Part shown: positions 2,046 through 27,964 of the stretch, piece by piece
Numbering within the stretch: the stretch's first letter is position 1
Layout of the letters: each line of letters starts with the position of its first letter
DNA from: Lentimicrobiaceae bacterium
GTDB taxonomy: Bacteria > Bacteroidota > Bacteroidia > Bacteroidales > SKPS01
DNA length: 32,419 nt
Reading direction: 5' to 3'
NCBI GenBank assembly: GCA_007119395.1
Contig: SKPS01000153.1
Span: forward strand, 1 to 32,419
The notes under the pieces: generated by a model
The model's database searches: none
Seen by the model: only the letters and a program-made list of their open reading frames with translations
Told to the model about the DNA's origin: nothing
Position numbers and translations under genes: made by a program

Positions 2046-3262
2046 TCGGTCAGCCCGTTTTTGGTCACAATGCTCAGGGTGTCACGCGCAATCACCAGCT
2101 CCTCATTGGTGGTGATCACCATGGCTGTTTTGGCCGAACCGGGCCTGGTGAGAATCTCATCCTTGCCGCGCATTCCATGATTCTTCTGTGTGTCAAAGTC
2201 AATGCCCAGGTATGTAAGCCCTGTGGCTACCTTCTCACGTACCCCTGAATCGTTTTCTCCAATACCACCGGTAAAAATCAACAGGTCTACACCATCCATC
2301 ACCGCGGCATAAGCACCTACATACTTTTTCACCCGATGGCAATACATATCTTGTGCAAGCGTTGCCTGTGGATCTGCTTCCTTCTCAATGGCCGTCTCAA
2401 TGTCACGCATATCATAGGAAATACCATAGATACCCAGTACTCCGCTCTTTTTGTTGAACAGATTGTTCACCTCCTGAATGGAGAGGTTCTCTTTTTCCAT
2501 CAGATAGAGCACAACCCCGATATCGAGGTCACCGGTACGGGTACCCATCATCAACCCTTCAATGGGGGTAAAGCCCATGGACGTCTCAACAGATTTCCCT
2601 TTGTCAATGGCAGCAACCGATGCTCCATTGCCAAGGTGGCAGGTGATAATCTTTAACTCCTCCCAGTTTTTCCCAAGGATATCGCATGCTTTCTGGGCTA
2701 CGAATTTATGGCTGGTTCCGTGGAAACCATAACGGCGGATGTTGTACTTTTCGTAATACTCGTAAGGAATGCCATAGAGATAGGCATGTTTTGGCATGGT
2801 CTGGTGGAAGGATGTGTCGAACACAGCTACCTGAGGCACTTCCGGAAGAATTTCATCGATGGAGAGGATCCCTTTAAGGTTAGCCGGATTGTGTAATGGA
2901 GCCAGCTCACAACACTTTTCAATGTCTTGTTTGACCCGTTCGTTCACGCGAACGCTGCTCTTGAAGTTTTCACCACCATGAGCTACACGATGACCTACCG
3001 CTGTGATTTCCTCCTTGGCTTTAATGACGCCTTGTACAGGGTGGACAAGGATTTCCAGGATGAGGTTGATACCTGTTTGGTGATCGGGAATATCTTTCAC
3101 CATGTTGAACTTGTCGCGGTTCTTTGCCCTGTGGTTCAGTTCAGCGCAATTCATGCCAATTCTTTCCACGATCCCTTTGGCAAGCAAATCTGCTTCGTGC
3201 GACATATCGATCAATTGGTACTTGATAGAAGAGCTGCCACAATTCAGTACTAAGATTTTCAT
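2042..3262 (-). CDS. ackA: Acetate kinase
   Basis: [60 protein letters not shown]; 406 aa. Confidence 0.97.
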
Positions 3263-3306
3263 TTTTTCTGTTTAGGTTTACTGATATAATTTTGTGAAGG
3301 ATTGTT

Positions 3307-4311
3307 TTATTTTCCGGCGGCTTGGTTTGCCGTGATGGCAACTAAGTTTACGATATCGTCAACGGAACACCCTCTGGAGAGGTCGTTGATGGGTGCTGCC
3401 ATCCCTTGCAGTACGGGGCCTACAGCCTCTGCACCTGCAAGGCGTTGCACCAGTTTATAGGCGATATTTCCCACTTCCAGGGTGGGGAATACCAGCACAT
3501 TGGCTTTTCCGGCAATCTGGCTCTCGGGGGCTTTGCTTTTTCCAATTTTTTCCACGATCGCTGCATCAGCTTGCATCTCGCCATCAATCAGCAGATCGGG
3601 CGCCATTTCGCGTGCTATTTTTGTTGCTTCCACCACTTTGTCAACCATGGGATGGGAAGCGCTGCCCTTGGTGCTGAAACTCAGCATGGCAACCCTGGGC
3701 TCAATACCTGCAATGGCCTGTGCTGTACGTGCTGTGCTTACAGCAATCTGCGCCAGCTCGTCAGCCGTAGGATCAGGATGAACAGCACAGTCGGCAAAAA
3801 CCAGGATGCCCTGCTCACCCCATTGGGCATCGGGAAGTATCATGATAAACGCCCCTGATACCACACTGATGCCGGGGAGTGTTTTTACAATTTGAAATGC
3901 CGGCCTTAAAACATTGCCTGTGGCATTGGCAGCACCTGCTACTTCACCATCAGCATCACCGTTCTTGATCAACAGGGTGGCCAGATACAAAGGATCCTCC
4001 ACCTGCTGCAAGGCAACCTCACGTGTCATCCCCTTCTCCTTGCGTATGCCGTACAGCATGTCAGCATAAAACTCCTTCTTCGGATGATCTGCAGGGTCAA
4101 TGATCTCTGCAAGATGGATATGTGCCAAACCATGTGCCGCTGCCAAACCGTGAATCTCATCACGGTTACCCAGCAAAATAATCCGGGCAATCCCCTCGCC
4201 CAAGATAATATCAGCCGCTTTTAAGGTGCGTTCTTCTGTGCCTTCGGGTAATACAATACGTTTGTTTTGTGATGTTGCCCGCTCTCTGATGTCTTTTAAT
4301 AATTTGATCAT
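3307..4311 (-). CDS. pta: Phosphate acetyltransferase
   Basis: [33 protein letters not shown]..., [34 protein letters not shown]; 334 aa, directly upstream of ackA. Confidence 0.95.
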
Positions 4312-4489
4312 ATCTCTTGTGTTTTATCAACCGACTGTCGGCTGCACACAAGAAGAGGTTCAGCGCGATGGCCGGGGGTGAAAAGAATCAATCTTTCAAT
4401 AAGTTGCGACATGCTGCCACAACACTCAATCGCACGGCAAAAATAGGCTGATTCTATGAATGTTCCTAATGAATTGAGGGATAAATTTC

Positions 4490-4553
4490 AAAAAAAAACA
4501 CCGGACACCGGCTGCACCCATTGAAAGGGGTGGCTTGAAGCCGGTGTCCGGTG
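4490..4553 (-). terminator. Rho-independent terminator downstream of the DUF2807 protein
   Basis: Perfect 15-bp inverted repeat CACCGGACACCGGCT (4499-4513) / AGCCGGTGTCCGGTG (4539-4553). A smaller CACCC/GGGTG hairpin lies in the loop. A run of T follows on the minus strand. Confidence 0.85.
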
Positions 4554-4589
4554 GCAATCACTGTGGTTTTGCCACTTATGATGTGTTGA

Positions 4590-6014
4590 TTAATTGAACC
4601 CGGTGAGCACAATGCCGAACGATGCAGCATAGACCTCCGGTCCTTTGTCTTTCTCGAAGAAGGGTAGCAGATTGTATTCGGCGAAAAAGTTGAGTCTGCC
4701 AAAGCCAATTCTGCCGGCTGCAGCTACACGGTAAGGGTTGAGATTGTACCTGTCTCGGGTCCGCTCACGAATGGTGGCACCGCCATCAGAATACTTCACC
4801 CGGGCAGAAGTACCCAAACGCAGTCCGAGGTTTACACCACCGGCAATATGAAATCGCTGACGGACAGGCCCTTTATTGGTCTGGAACTCCAGCATAAACG
4901 GAACCTTCAGGTAGGTTGCAGTTAGCTTGTTGCGCGATAGTTCAATGTCGTCGGAATGGTGCTGTATTACGGTTTTGCCATCCTTTTTTGCCAACCTGAT
5001 ATTCTCTTCAAAATGGTAGTTGTTGAACTCAAAGCCCATACCTGTAACGATGCCGAACTGCTGACGGATCAAAGGCAGATTGGTTTGAAGCAGGTTTACA
5101 TTCCATACCCGTGATGAAGGGATGTTCAGTGCAAGGGATTTGGCCTCCCCTTCAAGATTGAAACTCCCTTTGGAGGTCATAAACGTATTGATACCCAGTT
5201 CAAAACCCTCAAAATGACCATTAAATTTTCCTCTGCCCGACTCTCTGGTTTTTCTCGCTTCTTTTACCACTTCACGCACTTCCATCTCTTTGGCTTCACC
5301 TTCTATGGTCACGTCAATGGTTTCGTTCAACACCTGACTCAGACCGGAGGCCATGGAGGTTACATTCACTTCGTTGATGACAGGCTCTGAAACAAACACT
5401 ACCGAAGCCATGCCTGATACTCTGCCCTCAACCTTCTCTGTGACATTGAGCCTGCCTAATGTAGCACCTGTAAGTCTGATAGATGCCCGATTGATAACCA
5501 GACTATCGAAACGGGCCTGAGAAGCTCCGCCCAGCTCCAAAGTTAGGATCTCAGCAGTGCCCGATACAGTGGCTGTGGCAGCCCCCGTAAGCTTGGCTGT
5601 AAGGTCGGTGCTAACAATTGACATCGTTACGGTTGCAGCCCCTTTCGACTCTAAATGAAATGTGTCAGCAACAAAAGTGCCGATGCCAAGTGCTGTGGAC
5701 GCATCCTGAACTACAAGATGTTCCAGCGAAGGTGTGGTGATGCGCACCAACGCATCGTTGTCGCCACGCGCCGATAACCTTAACGACCCGTCTTGAACAG
5801 CACCTACCACTACACTTTTGCGGTCAGCCTCAGTCCCTTCCACTTGAAGCAAATATGACGAACCCTGGTGTAGCTCAACATTCAATGTGCCGGCAATGGT
5901 CAAACGACTAAATGGTGATACCTCATGCTCCTGCATATCCACCTGTGCGTAACTGGCAGTACCTATCAGTGTGAATAGCAATGAAACGATTAAAAATCTT
6001 ACTGTTGTTTTCAT
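4590..6014 (-). CDS. Secreted DUF2807 (GIN, head) domain plus C-terminal outer-membrane beta-barrel-like protein
   Basis: Signal peptide MKTTVRFLIVSLLFTLIGTASYAQ. Beta-repetitive FSRLTIAGTLNVELHQGSSYLLQVEGTE... is typical of DUF2807. C-terminus ends ...AASFGIVLTGFN, like a beta-barrel. Confidence 0.75.
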   Translation of the reverse strand: MKTTVRFLIVSLLFTLIGTASYAQVDMQEHEVSPFSRLTIAGTLNVELHQGSSYLLQVEGTEADRKSVVVGAVQDGSLRLSARGDNDALVRITTPSLEHLVVQDASTALGIGTFVADTFHLESKGAATVTMSIVSTDLTAKLTGAATATVSGTAEILTLELGGASQARFDSLVINRASIRLTGATLGRLNVTEKVEGRVSGMASVVFVSEPVINEVNVTSMASGLSQVLNETIDVTIEGEAKEMEVREVVKEARKTRESGRGKFNGHFEGFELGINTFMTSKGSFNLEGEAKSLALNIPSSRVWNVNLLQTNLPLIRQQFGIVTGMGFEFNNYHFEENIRLAKKDGKTVIQHHSDDIELSRNKLTATYLKVPFMLEFQTNKGPVRQRFHIAGGVNLGLRLGTSARVKYSDGGATIRERTRDRYNLNPYRVAAAGRIGFGRLNFFAEYNLLPFFEKDKGPEVYAASFGIVLTGFN

Positions 6015-6350: not shown

Positions 6351-8057
6351 TTAATCGTCGGTGCTCCAGTTATAACTGTAAAGGCCATCCAGCAGACGTT
6401 TCTTTTTCTCTTCATCAGAGAGCTTGTCGAAGGCTGCCTTTTCGGCGAGATGAGCTTCCACTTTCTTCATCTCTTCCTCATGAATCATTGCCCTGTACTC
6501 GCTCTCTTTCAGTTCTTGCAGGAACGTGGTGGCTACCTGAGGGAAAAGATCAAGCAACAACTCCTCTTTTTCGTTCTCTGCAAGTAACCTGTCACCGGCC
6601 TGATCCAGTTCGGGGTTTTCTGGCTTCTTGTAATTGTCAACGTTATAAGGGGTCTCTTCTCTGACACCACAAATCATCTCCCTGAAGTCGGGATCTATCT
6701 CTATGGGTGTTTTCCCATATTCACCTTTGACCAGGCTTACAAACTGATTGTTTTTGGTGGTGTAGGGCTTCTGCTTTTTGTTTTCGTCGATAACATAATT
6801 AACGGCCTGAACACCAACAATTTGAGAGGTTGGGGTTACCAATGGGGGGCACCCTGCAGCCAGTCGCACCACTGGTACCACTTCAAGAACCCTTGACATG
6901 AGATGATCGAGCTTGAGTTGTTTGAGCTGTGATATCATGTTGGTGTACATTCCACCGGGTATTTCTGCTTTTTTTACCTCTTCGTTGGGTTCGGGCAGGC
7001 CAAACCAACGTTCAATTGCCTGGGTAGCTTCCAGCAGCTTCTCTTCGTCATTTTTTCCGGCAAATTCTATTGCCTGGTCGAACAGTTGGTCTATTTCCGG
7101 GGGCAGTGTGTCTTTGGTAAGATCGAAGGTGCGGGGCAATTCGTAGTTGTCAATGTCTCCCATCTCTTTGCGGATCTCGCCGAGTTGTTCGTTGATGGTA
7201 GCGATCACGTTAACATTCACGCCGGTATCAACGCCCAATTTATTGCAGAAGAGTTGTATTATTTCGAATGATGGGGCAGCGGGGCCTCCGCTGAAGTTAA
7301 GGATGGATGTGTCAACGATATCTACTCCATTCATGATGGCCACCAGAGTGGATGCCAATCCGTAGCCGGGCGTACAGTGGGTGTGAAAGTCGATCGGGAT
7401 TTTCAGTTCCGCTTTCATTCTGGAGATGATTTTGGCTGCCTGACGCGGAGGAACGAGGCCTGCCATGTCTTTGATGGTGATCATATCGGCACCCATTGCT
7501 TCCAGCTCTTTGGCTTTGTTGACAAAGTAATCGGTTCGGAAGATTCTGCGGGGCACCTTTTTCATCTGCCAGAAGGCTTTTGCTCTTTCGCGCAGTGTGA
7601 ATTTGGGGTCAATGGTGTAACAGACACAACAGTCGGCAATACCTCCATTCTCTTTCACATATCCAATAGTTGACCGGATATTGCTGGTGTCATTGAGTGC
7701 ATCAAATATTCGCATGATGGAAATGCCTGATTGCACTGCATGACGGTTGAACCCCTCAATTACGCTTTCGGGATATGGATTGTATCCAAAGAGGTTTCTG
7801 CCTCGGGATAAGGCGGTTAGTTTGCTGACGCTTCCCACTTCACGATGAATGCTTTCGAGCCGGTGCCAGGGGTTCTCCTTCAGGAACCGCATAATGGCAT
7901 CCGGTACTGCGCCACCCCATACTTCCATGGCATAAAATCCTGCTTCCTTATAATAGGGCAACACACGGTCAACCTGATTCTGATTCATTCTGGTGGCAAA
8001 CAACGACTGCTGCCCATCCCTCAGTGTCAAATCCCTTATTTTTAATGTTTTGTTCAT
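6351..8057 (-). CDS. Biotin-dependent carboxyltransferase alpha subunit (oxaloacetate decarboxylase alpha / pyruvate carboxylase subunit B / transcarboxylase 5S type), without a biotinyl domain
   Basis: MNKTLKIRDLTLRDGQQSLFATRM...YAMEVWGGAVPDAIMRFL; KDMAGLVPP; FHTHCTPGYG. Ends ...LLDGLYSYNWSTDD with no MKM biotin site. Start taken at MNKTLK rather than at 8087. Confidence 0.9.
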   Translation of the reverse strand: MNKTLKIRDLTLRDGQQSLFATRMNQNQVDRVLPYYKEAGFYAMEVWGGAVPDAIMRFLKENPWHRLESIHREVGSVSKLTALSRGRNLFGYNPYPESVIEGFNRHAVQSGISIMRIFDALNDTSNIRSTIGYVKENGGIADCCVCYTIDPKFTLRERAKAFWQMKKVPRRIFRTDYFVNKAKELEAMGADMITIKDMAGLVPPRQAAKIISRMKAELKIPIDFHTHCTPGYGLASTLVAIMNGVDIVDTSILNFSGGPAAPSFEIIQLFCNKLGVDTGVNVNVIATINEQLGEIRKEMGDIDNYELPRTFDLTKDTLPPEIDQLFDQAIEFAGKNDEEKLLEATQAIERWFGLPEPNEEVKKAEIPGGMYTNMISQLKQLKLDHLMSRVLEVVPVVRLAAGCPPLVTPTSQIVGVQAVNYVIDENKKQKPYTTKNNQFVSLVKGEYGKTPIEIDPDFREMICGVREETPYNVDNYKKPENPELDQAGDRLLAENEKEELLLDLFPQVATTFLQELKESEYRAMIHEEEMKKVEAHLAEKAAFDKLSDEEKKKRLLDGLYSYNWSTDD

Positions 8058-8158
8058 GATAAACTTTAATTGGTTTAACAGTTCCAATGATTCTGTGCCG
8101 CCCCCGTATTAACGGCACAGAGGCAAGAGGCATCAAAAAAAGCCTTCTTTACCAAGTG

Positions 8159-8189
8159 CAAAGATAAGATAATCAAATATACAATTCAA
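8159..8189 (-). promoter_or_regulatory. Candidate Bacteroidetes-type promoter for the oadA-like gene
   Basis: On the minus strand, TTG then 20 nt then TATCTTTG (matches TAnnTTTG) at 8166-8159, upstream of the 8057 start. Confidence 0.45.
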
Positions 8190-8205
8190 GTAATAAATTG
8201 TTTAA

Positions 8206-10221
8206 TCACTCACCGGGTAAGTCTGTGCCGGTGTTCAGGGGATTTTGTATTGGAGGTATGTGGTGTTTTTTGCCCAGCCAACGGATTATGCCATAAGCGA
8301 TGGCTGTTGAAATGGCAAATGCCGCCAATGGGTGTAATCCATATGATGTGGGGATGATTCCTGCTGCCATTGCGATGGTTCCGGTAGTGAGCGCGTAGGG
8401 CAACTGTGTTTTCACGTGGTCGATATGGTTGCATTGGGTGGCCAGCGAGCTCAATATTGTAGTATCGGATATGGGTGAGCAGTGGTCACCCATGACGGCT
8501 CCTGCGAGCACTGATGCCACGGTAGCATGGAACAGCATCATGGATGTGGGTTGATCCAACTGAAATTCGAAAAACAGGTTCCAAGAGGTGGGGAGCAGGA
8601 GTGGGAACAGGATGGCCATTGTACTCCACGAAGAGCCGGTGCTGAAGGCGACGCCGGCGGCCAGCAAAAAGGTGAGCAGCGGGATAAGGCGTGGGGTGAT
8701 CTCAGATGCGATCATCACATGCGACAAGTATTCGGCTGTGTGCAGATGCCTGGTGACCATGGCCAGTGCCCAGGCCAGTACCAGAATCAGCATGGCATGC
8801 AGCATCGTCTTGAACCCCTCTACCATCCCTTCGGTCACCTTCTGTAGCGAGAGCAGCTTTTGTGACACTGTGAGCAGGATGGCAAGAAGCAGTCCGCTGA
8901 AAGATGCCCAAAGCAACGCCCTGAAGGTGTCGGCCTGACCAATGATTTCTGACAGATTGGAGGCCAGTCCGAGTTGTGGCTGCCAGGCAGTGTGCTCCAT
9001 TCCTGTGATAATCAGTCCTGTAAAAGCTCCGGTAATCACCGTTATAACGGGCAACAGAGCATTCACTGCGCGAGGTTTGGAGTGCTTCGCTTCACCCATC
9101 GCTGTTGCCGGGTTATGATGGGATGCGGGGTCTTCTTCGGCAGATGATTCCGGTGTTGTCTGAAGGAGTGTTCGCTGTTCGGCATGGTACATGGCTCCAT
9201 AATCACGGCCACTCCATATCAGCATCACCACAAACAGCAACGTGAGGAATGGGTAGAATGCGTATCCCAATGAGCCCATAAAGATGGCATAGGGGCTTGC
9301 TTCTATGGCGGGGGCCGTTCCTGCGGCAATCACCTCCAGGGCATCTTTGATATAGCTTAGTTCGGCGCCGATCCAAGTGGTGATAAAGGCCACTGCGGCC
9401 ACCGGTGCAGCAGTTGAGTCAACCACATAGCTCAGCTTTTCCCGTGAAATACGCATCCGGTCACTCAATGGGCGCATGGTGTTGCCAACCACCAACGTAT
9501 TGGCATAGTCATCAAAAAAAAGAACCAGCCCCATCAACCAAGTCGACAAAAGGGTTGAGCGCCGGGTGCCGGCAACCTTCATTATGAGCAATACCACCCC
9601 TTTCATTCCGCCATTCAGGGTGATGACATGAACCATTCCTCCGATCATCAATGAGAAAACGATGATTGAGACATGGTCGCTGCTGGTCATGGTAGCCACG
9701 ATGTAGGTGTCTATGATGCGTAGCAGTCCGACGCCTGCTGCTGTAATGATCGTGTGGCCGCCATACCATGCGATCATCCAGGTGCCTGATAACAGTCCCA
9801 GAATCAAGGCAGAAAACACCTCTCTGAAGAATAGAGCCCACGCAATCGCTAACAGGGGTGGTATCAGCCCGTACCAGAGAGGGATGGCTCTTCCGGTGGA
9901 GGAGTGGTGTGTGTTGTTTACGATGATGGTCACCGGTTGATGTGCTGCTGGAATGAAAGGGATGAGGTGAGCACTGAGTGTGGAGTCTGCGGCGATTTCA
10001 AAGGCATCCTCACCAACGATCACGGAAAAGTGCCCATGGTATCTATCGGGTGTCAGAACCTCTGCCGCTGTTTCAACACCGGCAACCATGATGGCGGGGA
10101 ACAGCACCTCATGCTTCTCTTGATATTGGTTCGAGGGGGGCGTTCCACACGAAGAGAGGACGATGAGAACCGTTATGATGAGAGCCAATGCCGGCAGAAG
10201 CCTTGACACGTTGGGTCTCAT
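8206..10221 (-). CDS. NhaC-family Na+/H+ antiporter with lipobox-like N-terminus and extra extracytoplasmic segment
   Basis: Polytopic core GRAIPLWYGLIPPLLAIAWALFFREVFSALILGLLSGTW..., FFDDYANTLVVGNTMRPLSDR, MGDHCSPISDTTILSS. N-terminus LIVLSSCGTPPSNQYQ. Confidence 0.85.
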   Translation of the reverse strand: MRPNVSRLLPALALIITVLIVLSSCGTPPSNQYQEKHEVLFPAIMVAGVETAAEVLTPDRYHGHFSVIVGEDAFEIAADSTLSAHLIPFIPAAHQPVTIIVNNTHHSSTGRAIPLWYGLIPPLLAIAWALFFREVFSALILGLLSGTWMIAWYGGHTIITAAGVGLLRIIDTYIVATMTSSDHVSIIVFSLMIGGMVHVITLNGGMKGVVLLIMKVAGTRRSTLLSTWLMGLVLFFDDYANTLVVGNTMRPLSDRMRISREKLSYVVDSTAAPVAAVAFITTWIGAELSYIKDALEVIAAGTAPAIEASPYAIFMGSLGYAFYPFLTLLFVVMLIWSGRDYGAMYHAEQRTLLQTTPESSAEEDPASHHNPATAMGEAKHSKPRAVNALLPVITVITGAFTGLIITGMEHTAWQPQLGLASNLSEIIGQADTFRALLWASFSGLLLAILLTVSQKLLSLQKVTEGMVEGFKTMLHAMLILVLAWALAMVTRHLHTAEYLSHVMIASEITPRLIPLLTFLLAAGVAFSTGSSWSTMAILFPLLLPTSWNLFFEFQLDQPTSMMLFHATVASVLAGAVMGDHCSPISDTTILSSLATQCNHIDHVKTQLPYALTTGTIAMAAGIIPTSYGLHPLAAFAISTAIAYGIIRWLGKKHHIPPIQNPLNTGTDLPGE

Positions 10222-25354: not shown

Positions 25355-26065
25355 CTATACAATGGTTTTTACCCTGTTTCTCTCCTGAATGTATTGTTCA
25401 TATTTCCCTTCAAAGCGGATTCTCGCAGCCACTACAGTATCAAACTGTTTCAGGCTGGCAATCAGCAATTCACACACCTCCCTCAGCGCCATATTTCCCC
25501 CTGTAGAGCCGGTGATATAATCAGCCAAACGGTGTTCCAATACATATCGTCTGGTAAGGGGAGCTGCCGGCTGGTTAAAAAACAGCCTCAGCCCGCACCG
25601 CTGAGCCAAGGTGAAATCAATGATGTCATCAAAAAAAAATGCTGTCTCTTCCGGTACCACTGCATGGTCACGTGACAGAACAGAAAGCGCTTCATCCTTA
25701 CGCTTCACACCTGTCATTACCATATTAAAGTGCTCACGGGTTGCAAACTGCTTCGCTGTTTTATTGTCAGCACCCGACACGATCGCAGTAATGGGCATCT
25801 CCCCCTTGTTTTGTAGCCAGATGGCAAAACGGAGCATGTTCACCCCCATTGAGTCAGCCTCCGTGAAGCCACTTCCGTCGAGATGGGTCTTATGGCCATT
25901 GTTGAATACACCGTCCCAGTCGAATACCAAAGCCCTGACACGCGCTAAACGCCCGGCAAATGATGCATACCCCTCAGGAAACTCACCCCCCAACTCTTTG
26001 AAAGGGGTGATGAGCGCGCTGTCAAACCCAGGCTGTTGTTGTGGATCGTGATGCATGTTGTTCAC
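25355..26065 (-). CDS. HAD-superfamily phosphatase, divergent KdsC/YrbI-like
   Basis: ALVFDWDGVFNNGHKTH, TAIVSGADNKTAKQFA, FFFDDIIDFTLAQRCGL, GGNMALREVCELLIA align with KdsC motifs. GTG start overlaps the upstream stop by 4 bp; ATG at 26056 is an alternative. Confidence 0.75.
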   Translation of the reverse strand: MNNMHHDPQQQPGFDSALITPFKELGGEFPEGYASFAGRLARVRALVFDWDGVFNNGHKTHLDGSGFTEADSMGVNMLRFAIWLQNKGEMPITAIVSGADNKTAKQFATREHFNMVMTGVKRKDEALSVLSRDHAVVPEETAFFFDDIIDFTLAQRCGLRLFFNQPAAPLTRRYVLEHRLADYITGSTGGNMALREVCELLIASLKQFDTVVAARIRFEGKYEQYIQERNRVKTIV

Positions 26066-27084
26066 GGCCTGCCGTTTTTAAAGAGATCATGGATGTCCAT
26101 GATGCCGATTGGCTTACCATCTTTGGTAACCACAATGTTATCGATTTTCTTTTTCCTGAACAACAATGAAGCATTGTGCAGTGACTCCTCTGCATCGATG
26201 CAGACAGGTGTTTTCACGGGCATGGTATCGAGCTTTTTACGAAGAATTCCTTCCCCTTGTTGCTCAAGCATTCTACGCAGGTCTCCATCGGTGAAGATTC
26301 CTATCAGTGCTCCGTTGTCGTCTGTGATGCTGACGGCGCCAAACTGTGAAGTGGTCATAATGACCAGTGCATCCAGGATGGTTTTATGATGGCTTATGGT
26401 GGAGGGTGCATCTGAGATCACCTGGTGAACCTTAAGGGTGATGAGTCTGGTGTGCTCAAAGAACTGCTGTGTGCCAATGTCGGTGAAATGGTTTTTGAAC
26501 AATTGCTTCATCACCTTCCAGGGAATGGTACAGGCATGTACGCCAAGGTTCAATGCGTTGCGAACGTGTTCTGAATGCCTGACGGATGAGAACATAATTT
26601 TCGAAGGATATCGGTACCTGTCGGTGATCTCAACACATTGCCTGATGAGCCCCAGTGCGTCGTGCCCTTCGTCCTGCAATCGGCCTACCAATGGGCACAC
26701 ATAGGTGGCCCCTGCCGACAACGCCATATAGGCCTGCTGAATCGTATAGACTAGATGTACGTTCACCATCAGCCCTTGATCAATCAACTGCCTGCACGCC
26801 TTTATGCCGTCGGTGCTGACAGGGATTTTAAAGACTGTTCGTGACGGGTCGAGGCCCAATCCGATCAAACGATGCGCTTCAGAACAGATCTCCTCAGCAT
26901 CTTCTCCCAGTGCTTCCACCTGCAAAACAGGCACCCTGGTGGAGAGCTGAAGAATGGTGCTGTTGATGTCTGTGATACCATCACGGTGCATAAAAGTTGG
27001 TGTGGTGGTAAGCCCCGCAAGGATGCCCAATGACGCGGCCTCTTCAATCTCTTCAATATTGGCTGAATCAAGGTATAATTCCAT
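26062..27084 (-). CDS. FSA/transaldolase-family aldolase fused to a KdsD-type CBS-domain pair
   Basis: N-terminus MELYLDSANIEEIEEAASLGILAGLTTTPTF...TVFKIPVSTDGIKACRQL...AGATYVCPLVGRLQDEG is FSA/transaldolase-like, with the Schiff-base Lys in FKIP. C-terminus GALIGIFTDGDLRRMLEQ...KPIGIMDIHDLFKNG is a CBS pair like that of KdsD. Start at MELYLD. Confidence 0.88.
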   Translation of the reverse strand: MELYLDSANIEEIEEAASLGILAGLTTTPTFMHRDGITDINSTILQLSTRVPVLQVEALGEDAEEICSEAHRLIGLGLDPSRTVFKIPVSTDGIKACRQLIDQGLMVNVHLVYTIQQAYMALSAGATYVCPLVGRLQDEGHDALGLIRQCVEITDRYRYPSKIMFSSVRHSEHVRNALNLGVHACTIPWKVMKQLFKNHFTDIGTQQFFEHTRLITLKVHQVISDAPSTISHHKTILDALVIMTTSQFGAVSITDDNGALIGIFTDGDLRRMLEQQGEGILRKKLDTMPVKTPVCIDAEESLHNASLLFRKKKIDNIVVTKDGKPIGIMDIHDLFKNGRP

Positions 27085-27964
27085 GTTCGTTTTTGTATTG
27101 GTTGATCGTGTTATGTATCTCAAGCAGTGGTTTTAAAAACATTTCCAAGTGTTGGGTATGCATTTGGCTTGCTGCATCGCACAACGCTTTGTCTGGTGCT
27201 GTGTGGGTTTCAATGAAAAGTCCGTCAATGCCTGCTGCCACGGCACTTCGTGCCAGTACACTCAAATATTCACGGGAACCGCCGGCTGGGTTGGAGCTTG
27301 GAATTCCATATCGTCTTACTGAATGTGTAACATCAAATACCACCGGGCATCCGGTTCGTTGCAGATGGTAAAAGCTCCGTGGATCAACCACCAGGTCGTT
27401 GTAACCAAAAGAGTAACCTCGCTCGGTTACCAGGATATTTCTGTTCCCTGCAGCCTCCACCTTGGCAACAGGCTTCAACATCTGTTCCGGTGCCAGAAAC
27501 TGACCTCGTTTGATGTTGACGACCTTGTTCGTTGAGGCCACCTTTTCCAATAGCTCGGTCTGCATGCATAGGTAGGCTGGTATTTGCAATACATCCAATA
27601 CAGCTGCCGCCTCATCAACGTGTTCGGGATAGTGCACATCCGATAACACAGGGAAGCCAAAATCGCCTCTGATCCGTTCCAGAATCCGCAACCCTTTTTC
27701 AAGCCCGGGGCCACGGTAGTAATTGGCAACACTGCGGTTGTCTTTGAGGAAAGAGGATTTGAAAATCACAGGTATGTTTAATCTGGCTGAAATACCTGCC
27801 AGTTGCTCAGCTACCTGCATCATAAGAGGCTCCTCTTCAATCACACAAGGGCCTGAAATTAAAAAGAGGGGAGGTGCTCCGCATACCAAGTCACCTATCA
27901 CCACCTGATGCTTTGTGCGTGACAGGTGACGATCGATTGGCCTAAGGTTGTTTTTCGTAGTCAT
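27068..27964 (-). CDS. KdsA-like 3-deoxy-octulosonate-8-phosphate synthase family protein (divergent)
   Basis: FLISGPCVIEEEP, FKSSFLKDNRSVANYYRGPGLEKGL, LQIPAYLCMQTELL, VNIKRGQFLAPEQM, TERGYSFGYNDLVVDPRS, VVFDVTHSV, LFIETHTAPDKALCD. Start at MTTKNN. Confidence 0.85.
   Translation of the reverse strand: MTTKNNLRPIDRHLSRTKHQVVIGDLVCGAPPLFLISGPCVIEEEPLMMQVAEQLAGISARLNIPVIFKSSFLKDNRSVANYYRGPGLEKGLRILERIRGDFGFPVLSDVHYPEHVDEAAAVLDVLQIPAYLCMQTELLEKVASTNKVVNIKRGQFLAPEQMLKPVAKVEAAGNRNILVTERGYSFGYNDLVVDPRSFYHLQRTGCPVVFDVTHSVRRYGIPSSNPAGGSREYLSVLARSAVAAGIDGLFIETHTAPDKALCDAASQMHTQHLEMFLKPLLEIHNTINQYKNEHGIIP

Follow-up and report, generated by a model that had tools for sequence, protein, structure and literature searches.

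Fusion of a transaldolase-type barrel with a KdsD-type CBS pair, a candidate source of arabinose 5-phosphate for Kdo synthesis

Gene layout and encoded proteins

The window, that is, the whole analysed stretch of 32,419 nucleotides, is contig SKPS01000153.1 (assembly GCA_007119395.1) from a Lentimicrobiaceae bacterium. Three minus-strand genes with overlapping ends were found as open reading frames where the original prediction had placed them. The overlaps between KdsA and the fusion and between the fusion and the KdsC-like gene are 17 nt and 4 nt, respectively. The features are as follows (TAL, transaldolase; FSA, fructose-6-phosphate aldolase).

27068..27964, minus strand: KdsA (Kdo-8-phosphate synthase), ATG start; NCBIfam PRK05198 342 bits, TIGR01362 329 bits; cassette-specific clade
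26062..27084, minus strand: fusion of a transaldolase/FSA-type barrel and a CBS pair, 340 aa, ATG start; PF00923 and PF00571
26455..27084, minus strand: TAL/FSA-type barrel domain of the fusion, residues 1-210, by family profiles, alignment and structure match
26827..26829, minus strand: codon of the Schiff-base lysine K86 of the fusion, by alignment to TAL/FSA and codon check; invariant in 81 sequences
26071..26436, minus strand: CBS pair of the fusion, residues 217-338, by C-terminal matches to TIGR00393, PRK10892 and PRK11543; PDB 4o9k best
25355..26065, minus strand: KdsC-like HAD phosphatase of a divergent subfamily, GTG start; PRK09484 53 bits (cut-off 208); E. coli KdsC 2r8e

By Pfam scan, PF00923 covered residues 3-201 of the fusion (121 bits against a cut-off of 27) and PF00571 was matched with 61 bits. 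Matches to TIGR00393 and the KdsD models were confined to the CBS part (model positions 154-267 of 268), and in the same profile scan the SIS catalytic domain of KdsD was absent from the fusion. The CBS pair alone, which carries the FTDGDLRR signature of KdsD/KpsF, gave as its best PDB match 4o9k, the CBS pair of an arabinose-5-phosphate (A5P) isomerase; its likeness to KdsD is one of sequence, seen against that isomerase. The original prediction, a KdsD-like CBS pair with a transaldolase-type barrel in place of the SIS domain, was thus borne out by both Pfam families, the coverage of TIGR00393 and the 4o9k match. On this likeness, the CBS pair on balance probably binds CMP-Kdo and would thereby throttle the fusion.

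An AlphaFold2 model of the fusion, built from 62 sequences, had a mean pLDDT of 90, and the nearest PDB fold of its barrel was B. subtilis transaldolase 3r8r (TM-score 0.91, 38% identity). The fusion stayed below the FSA equivalog cut-off (TIGR00875, 171 bits against 245.95), and NCBIfam contained no model whose cut-off was reached by the fusion or the KdsC-like protein. Since full-length fusions exist in other genomes at 53-77% identity, a chance origin of the fusion is excluded.

The KdsC-like protein, weakly similar to KdsC and short of the PRK09484 cut-off, gave no Pfam match. It keeps the HAD motifs D49-x-D51, K123 and D146-D147, and is extended at the N-terminus by about 38 residues; from these features it may be assigned to an unnamed KdsC subfamily with a putative function as Kdo-8-phosphate phosphatase.

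The KdsA of the trio passed its equivalog cut-off (TIGR01362, 329.3 bits against 314). K-x-N-R-S and the metal ligands C40, H214, E252 and D263 are kept, with K-D-N-R-S and an R217-x-Y-G-I-P loop as the signature of the cassette type. Compared with canonical KdsA, the fixed changes are A75D (in KANRS), R134M, K153H, Q217R together with a one-residue insert in YGIP, and S262C; Q217R sits in the loop that follows the metal-binding His. In the tree, the KdsA sequences of fusion genomes formed their own clade (SH-aLRT 100, stem of 1.26 changes per site); this separate clade and its altered active-site residues were not part of the original prediction. The changes may have evolved together with the fusion or the KdsC-like protein. 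A second, divergent KdsA-like open reading frame (199.7 bits) was observed on contig C329 of the same genome (L154, positions 4554-5315); it ends at the contig edge and was set aside as the true KdsA of the genome, being cut by the contig end and devoid of K-x-N-R-S.

Active site of the fusion

In the alignment of 81 fusion sequences, D6, E57, K86, N108, R135, S167 and R169 were invariant, as in transaldolases, so that Schiff-base chemistry and the binding of a phosphorylated aldehyde would be expected. Compared with transaldolases, the same 81 sequences carry the changes N28T, T110H, S130C (Thr in six), F132L and D137Q. At the switched positions, all 21 solo transaldolases compared, which come from the same order, kept the original residues, Asn28, Thr110, Ser130 and Phe132 of the solo enzymes being replaced in the fusion by T, H, C/T and L, respectively. 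In TAL/FSA, these four positions lie on the donor side or at the catalytic water, with the roles of the residues transferred from family knowledge. Gln59 (acid-base) and Tyr131, which we take to be the residues of E. coli FSA, correspond to Glu57 and Leu132 in the fusion, both invariant. Ser at the position equivalent to 130 favours dihydroxyacetone in FSA (A129S) and TalB (PMC3962226), and the loss of this Ser fits a donor other than dihydroxyacetone. In the tree, the fusion barrels formed one clade, separate from the solo enzymes.

Distribution, operon linkage and relation to KdsD

The full-length fusion was present in 8 of 148 genomes of relatives and in 6 of 398 genomes sampled across the phylum. 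A pattern-based scan of species genomes yielded more than 550 fusion relatives, mostly from Bacteroidota; the best 80 of these were full-length matches at 58-77% identity from several Bacteroidota orders, together with metagenome-assembled genomes labelled as Desulfobacterota/Deltaproteobacteria, Ignavibacteriae (Ignavibacteria) and SAR324, some of which labels may be wrong. Cultured bacteria that carry the fusion include Flexithrix dorotheae, Thermonema rossianum, Raineya orbicola and Thermoflexibacter ruber.

For the same best 80, linkage was counted only at loci whose contigs leave room on the relevant side. KdsA lay directly upstream of the fusion at 56 of 73 such loci and the KdsC-like gene directly downstream at 66 of 77, with both neighbours together at 53 of 70. 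KdsB was found within the cassette at 16 of the best 80 loci, and WaaA adjoins KdsB in L102 and L112, the two loci annotated in detail. The order in L102 (Desulfobacteraceae) is WaaA-KdsB-KdsA-fusion-KdsC: the Kdo operon is complete, and the fusion stands at the place expected for KdsD. Clustering of all neighbours at the 80 loci gave no further gene conserved to a similar degree. The survey of architecture and neighbourhood proposed with the original prediction thus found the KdsA/KdsC linkage conserved across phyla.

As a side observation, a DegT-type aminotransferase and an iron-type alcohol dehydrogenase adjoin the cassette at 12 of the 80 loci (e.g. L112, positions 2758-5059; also L187, positions 7766-10115). 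This pair presumably recalls KdnA/KdnB of 8-amino-Kdo synthesis; NCBIfam gave general family matches only.

The genome search that had been suggested for a SIS-type KdsD gave none in the source genome (assembly 86% complete), in which the other SIS proteins were GlmS-like and GmhA-like only, and KdsD was also absent from the congener (98% complete). A hidden KdsD in the source genome was rejected on this SIS inventory, as far as an 86% complete assembly allows, and on the congener. Among the 148 relatives, the SIS domain of KdsD was found in 0 of 8 fusion genomes and in 123 of 140 others (Fisher p = 2e-7), 17 genomes having neither the fusion nor KdsD, and in the 398-genome phylum sample KdsD was found in 0 of 6 fusion genomes and in 287 of 392 others (Fisher p = 4e-4); both p values overstate independence, the genomes being related. 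When distinct fusion genomes were searched directly, KdsD was detected in 4 of 54.

The rest of the Kdo pathway was retained. KdsB and one TIGR01362-type KdsA (about 310-345 bits) were present in 23 of 23 fusion genomes tested, the source genome having KdsB, and WaaA in 22 of 23, the exception being the source assembly (86% complete), in whose congener WaaA is present. By comparison, 15 genomes devoid of both KdsD and the fusion were tested, and 14 of them also lacked KdsA, so the absence of KdsD as a mere loss of Kdo is contradicted, fusion genomes keeping KdsA and KdsB. KdsA was found in 3 of the 17 relatives without KdsD and fusion.

Two further groups of genomes were observed. KdsB and WaaA were present in G013, G036, G066, G107, G118 and G140, in which KdsA, KdsD and the fusion were not found; these perhaps use another unrecognised route or another sugar. 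KdsA was present in G011, G047 and G141 (83-94% complete) and in G170 (rated complete), in which KdsD and the fusion were not detected.

Cassette-type KdsA occurred in the 398-genome sample in exactly the six fusion genomes and in one more, G397. The cassette of G397 consists of a KdnA/KdnB-like pair, the cassette-type KdsA, KdsC and KdsB, with no fusion between KdsA and KdsC; this KdsA is the only one in the genome, and KdsD is encoded elsewhere. From this arrangement, KdsD would be able to substitute for the fusion with the same type of KdsA, and the replacement suggests that the fusion and KdsD both deliver A5P, for which it is the best available evidence. Among the four genomes with both the fusion and KdsD, G573 and G576 have two KdsAs each, one canonical and one of the cassette type.

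Taken together, the genome comparisons strongly support a place of the fusion in the Kdo pathway, in which it very probably replaces KdsD functionally. The route put forward in the original prediction, to A5P or another aldose phosphate for a 3-deoxy-ulosonic acid, gains support, and the replacement in G397 favours A5P.

Proposed reaction and comparison with known systems

The best explanation of the whole, which we hold to be somewhat more probable than its rivals together, is that the fusion works as a class I aldolase and so supplies A5P to KdsA in place of KdsD. For FsaA and FsaB, a preference for glycolaldehyde as the donor was reported, with glyceraldehyde-3-phosphate (G3P) as acceptor and A5P as product (PMC6298115), and in E. 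coli FsaA was employed in vivo as an aldolase that makes A5P (PMC9947464); the fusion is, on the former ground, most simply taken as a natural A5P aldolase. Glycolaldehyde would be bound as an enamine by Lys86 (class I, Schiff base), and this enamine would attack G3P, held by the retained phosphate site of R135, S167 and R169, to give A5P. KdsA would then add PEP to A5P and the KdsC-like phosphatase would take off the phosphate, after which KdsB and WaaA would act, whose genes lie in the same operon or at another site. That the reaction is indeed glycolaldehyde + G3P to A5P stands at about an even chance.

Glycolaldehyde supply is the weak point of the aldolase reading: the conserved neighbourhood of the cassette showed no dedicated source, and the known sources, e.g. 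folate synthesis, seem too small. Also counted against the best explanation are the four fusion genomes that retain KdsD and the fixed KdsA changes A75D, R134M, K153H and Q217R, which could point to a different aldose.

The main rival, in our judgement unlikely, is that the barrel makes A5P from ribose-5-phosphate (R5P) by epimerisation at C2, with a Lys86 Schiff base at C1 and either a retro-aldol step to bound glycolaldehyde enamine and G3P, which are rejoined on the opposite face, or deprotonation and reprotonation of C2 aided by the new invariant His110. All evidence for A5P supply fits such an epimerase equally, free glycolaldehyde would be unneeded, which removes the supply problem, and at the catalytic-water site all 81 sequences have His110 and Leu132 in place of Thr and Phe/Tyr. 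L-Ribulose-5-phosphate 4-epimerase, an aldolase-family enzyme that epimerises via retro-aldol chemistry, is a precedent; we know of no Schiff-base pentose-phosphate 2-epimerase in the transaldolase family, which counts against this rival. Ketose-aldose isomerisation of ribulose-5-phosphate on Lys86 was rejected on chemistry, as a C2 imine cannot yield a free aldose at C1.

Less probable still, and rather doubtful, is the synthesis of a different 3-deoxy-ulosonic acid by the trio, in which another aldose phosphate would be formed by the fusion and used by the diverged KdsA. The separate, long-stemmed KdsA clade with its fixed changes in KANRS and in the post-His loop, and the diverged KdsC-like protein, are in keeping with it, but the same KdsA type is used without the fusion in G397, a genome that has KdsD; KdsB and WaaA belong to known Kdo families; and the K-x-N-R-S motif and metal ligands of A5P-using KdsA are retained. 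It is very improbable that the fusion serves the pentose phosphate pathway as an ordinary transaldolase or fructose-6-phosphate aldolase and lies by chance in a cell-envelope operon: its fold, lysine and phosphate site are as in B. subtilis transaldolase, but several fusion genomes have a separate solo transaldolase, residues universal in the solo enzymes are switched and fixed, the fusion sequences are one clade, and linkage to KdsA/KdsC and exclusion with KdsD are strict. The alternative raised with the original prediction, an ordinary enzyme in a genome with a complete canonical Kdo pathway and no conserved linkage, accordingly disagrees with the missing KdsD and the conserved KdsA/KdsC neighbours.

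Whether by aldol synthesis of A5P or by 2-epimerisation of R5P, it is quite likely that A5P and Kdo are made in nature by a second route, and a widespread one. In it, KdsD would be replaced by a dedicated enzyme of class I aldolase fold with a CBS sensor of the KdsD type, which would move across several phyla in a cassette together with KdsA and KdsC clades of its own, and whose physiological reaction has so far not been assigned to the transaldolase family. Lipopolysaccharide has Kdo as its conserved inner sugar, and the KdsD reaction, which forms A5P, is regarded as the entry into Kdo synthesis and as a target for drugs. In the open-access literature no description was found of the fusion or of a transaldolase-like protein that makes up for an absent KdsD. 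If the A5P route holds, a hidden gap in the annotated Kdo pathway of many Bacteroidota and other lineages would be filled, a physiological role would be added to the transaldolase family, and the origin of free glycolaldehyde or of an R5P-derived two-carbon unit would become a question. It would also represent a regulatory domain retained while the catalytic domain was swapped, and offer a natural A5P aldolase for the engineering of one- and two-carbon assimilation, where E. coli FSA serves today.

Among known systems, the small transaldolases of subfamily IV (B. subtilis 3r8r, T. acidophilum 3s0c) share with the fusion the fold, K86 and the other invariant residues (D6, E57, N108, R135, S167 and R169), from which the fusion differs by N28T, T110H, S130C, F132L and D137Q, the CBS pair and the Kdo operon context. 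FSA is, to our knowledge, not known to serve Kdo synthesis. E. coli FsaA and FsaB are alike in family and in the reported formation of A5P from glycolaldehyde and G3P (PMC6298115), but have Gln as acid-base residue, Tyr at 131/132 and no CBS pair, whereas the fusion has Glu, Leu and a CBS pair. All other steps of the canonical KdsA-KdsB-KdsC-WaaA pathway are present by homology, but the organisms with the fusion generally lack KdsD and have cassette-specific KdsA and KdsC clades, with the cassette occurring in several phyla. KdsD, GutQ and KpsF (SIS + CBS) resemble the fusion in the type of the C-terminal CBS pair (4o9k) and in the presumed place between the pentose/triose phosphate pool and KdsA, and their occurrence is mutually exclusive with it; their catalytic domain is SIS, whereas that of the fusion is unrelated, a TIM barrel bearing a Schiff-base lysine, for which a different chemistry would be expected.
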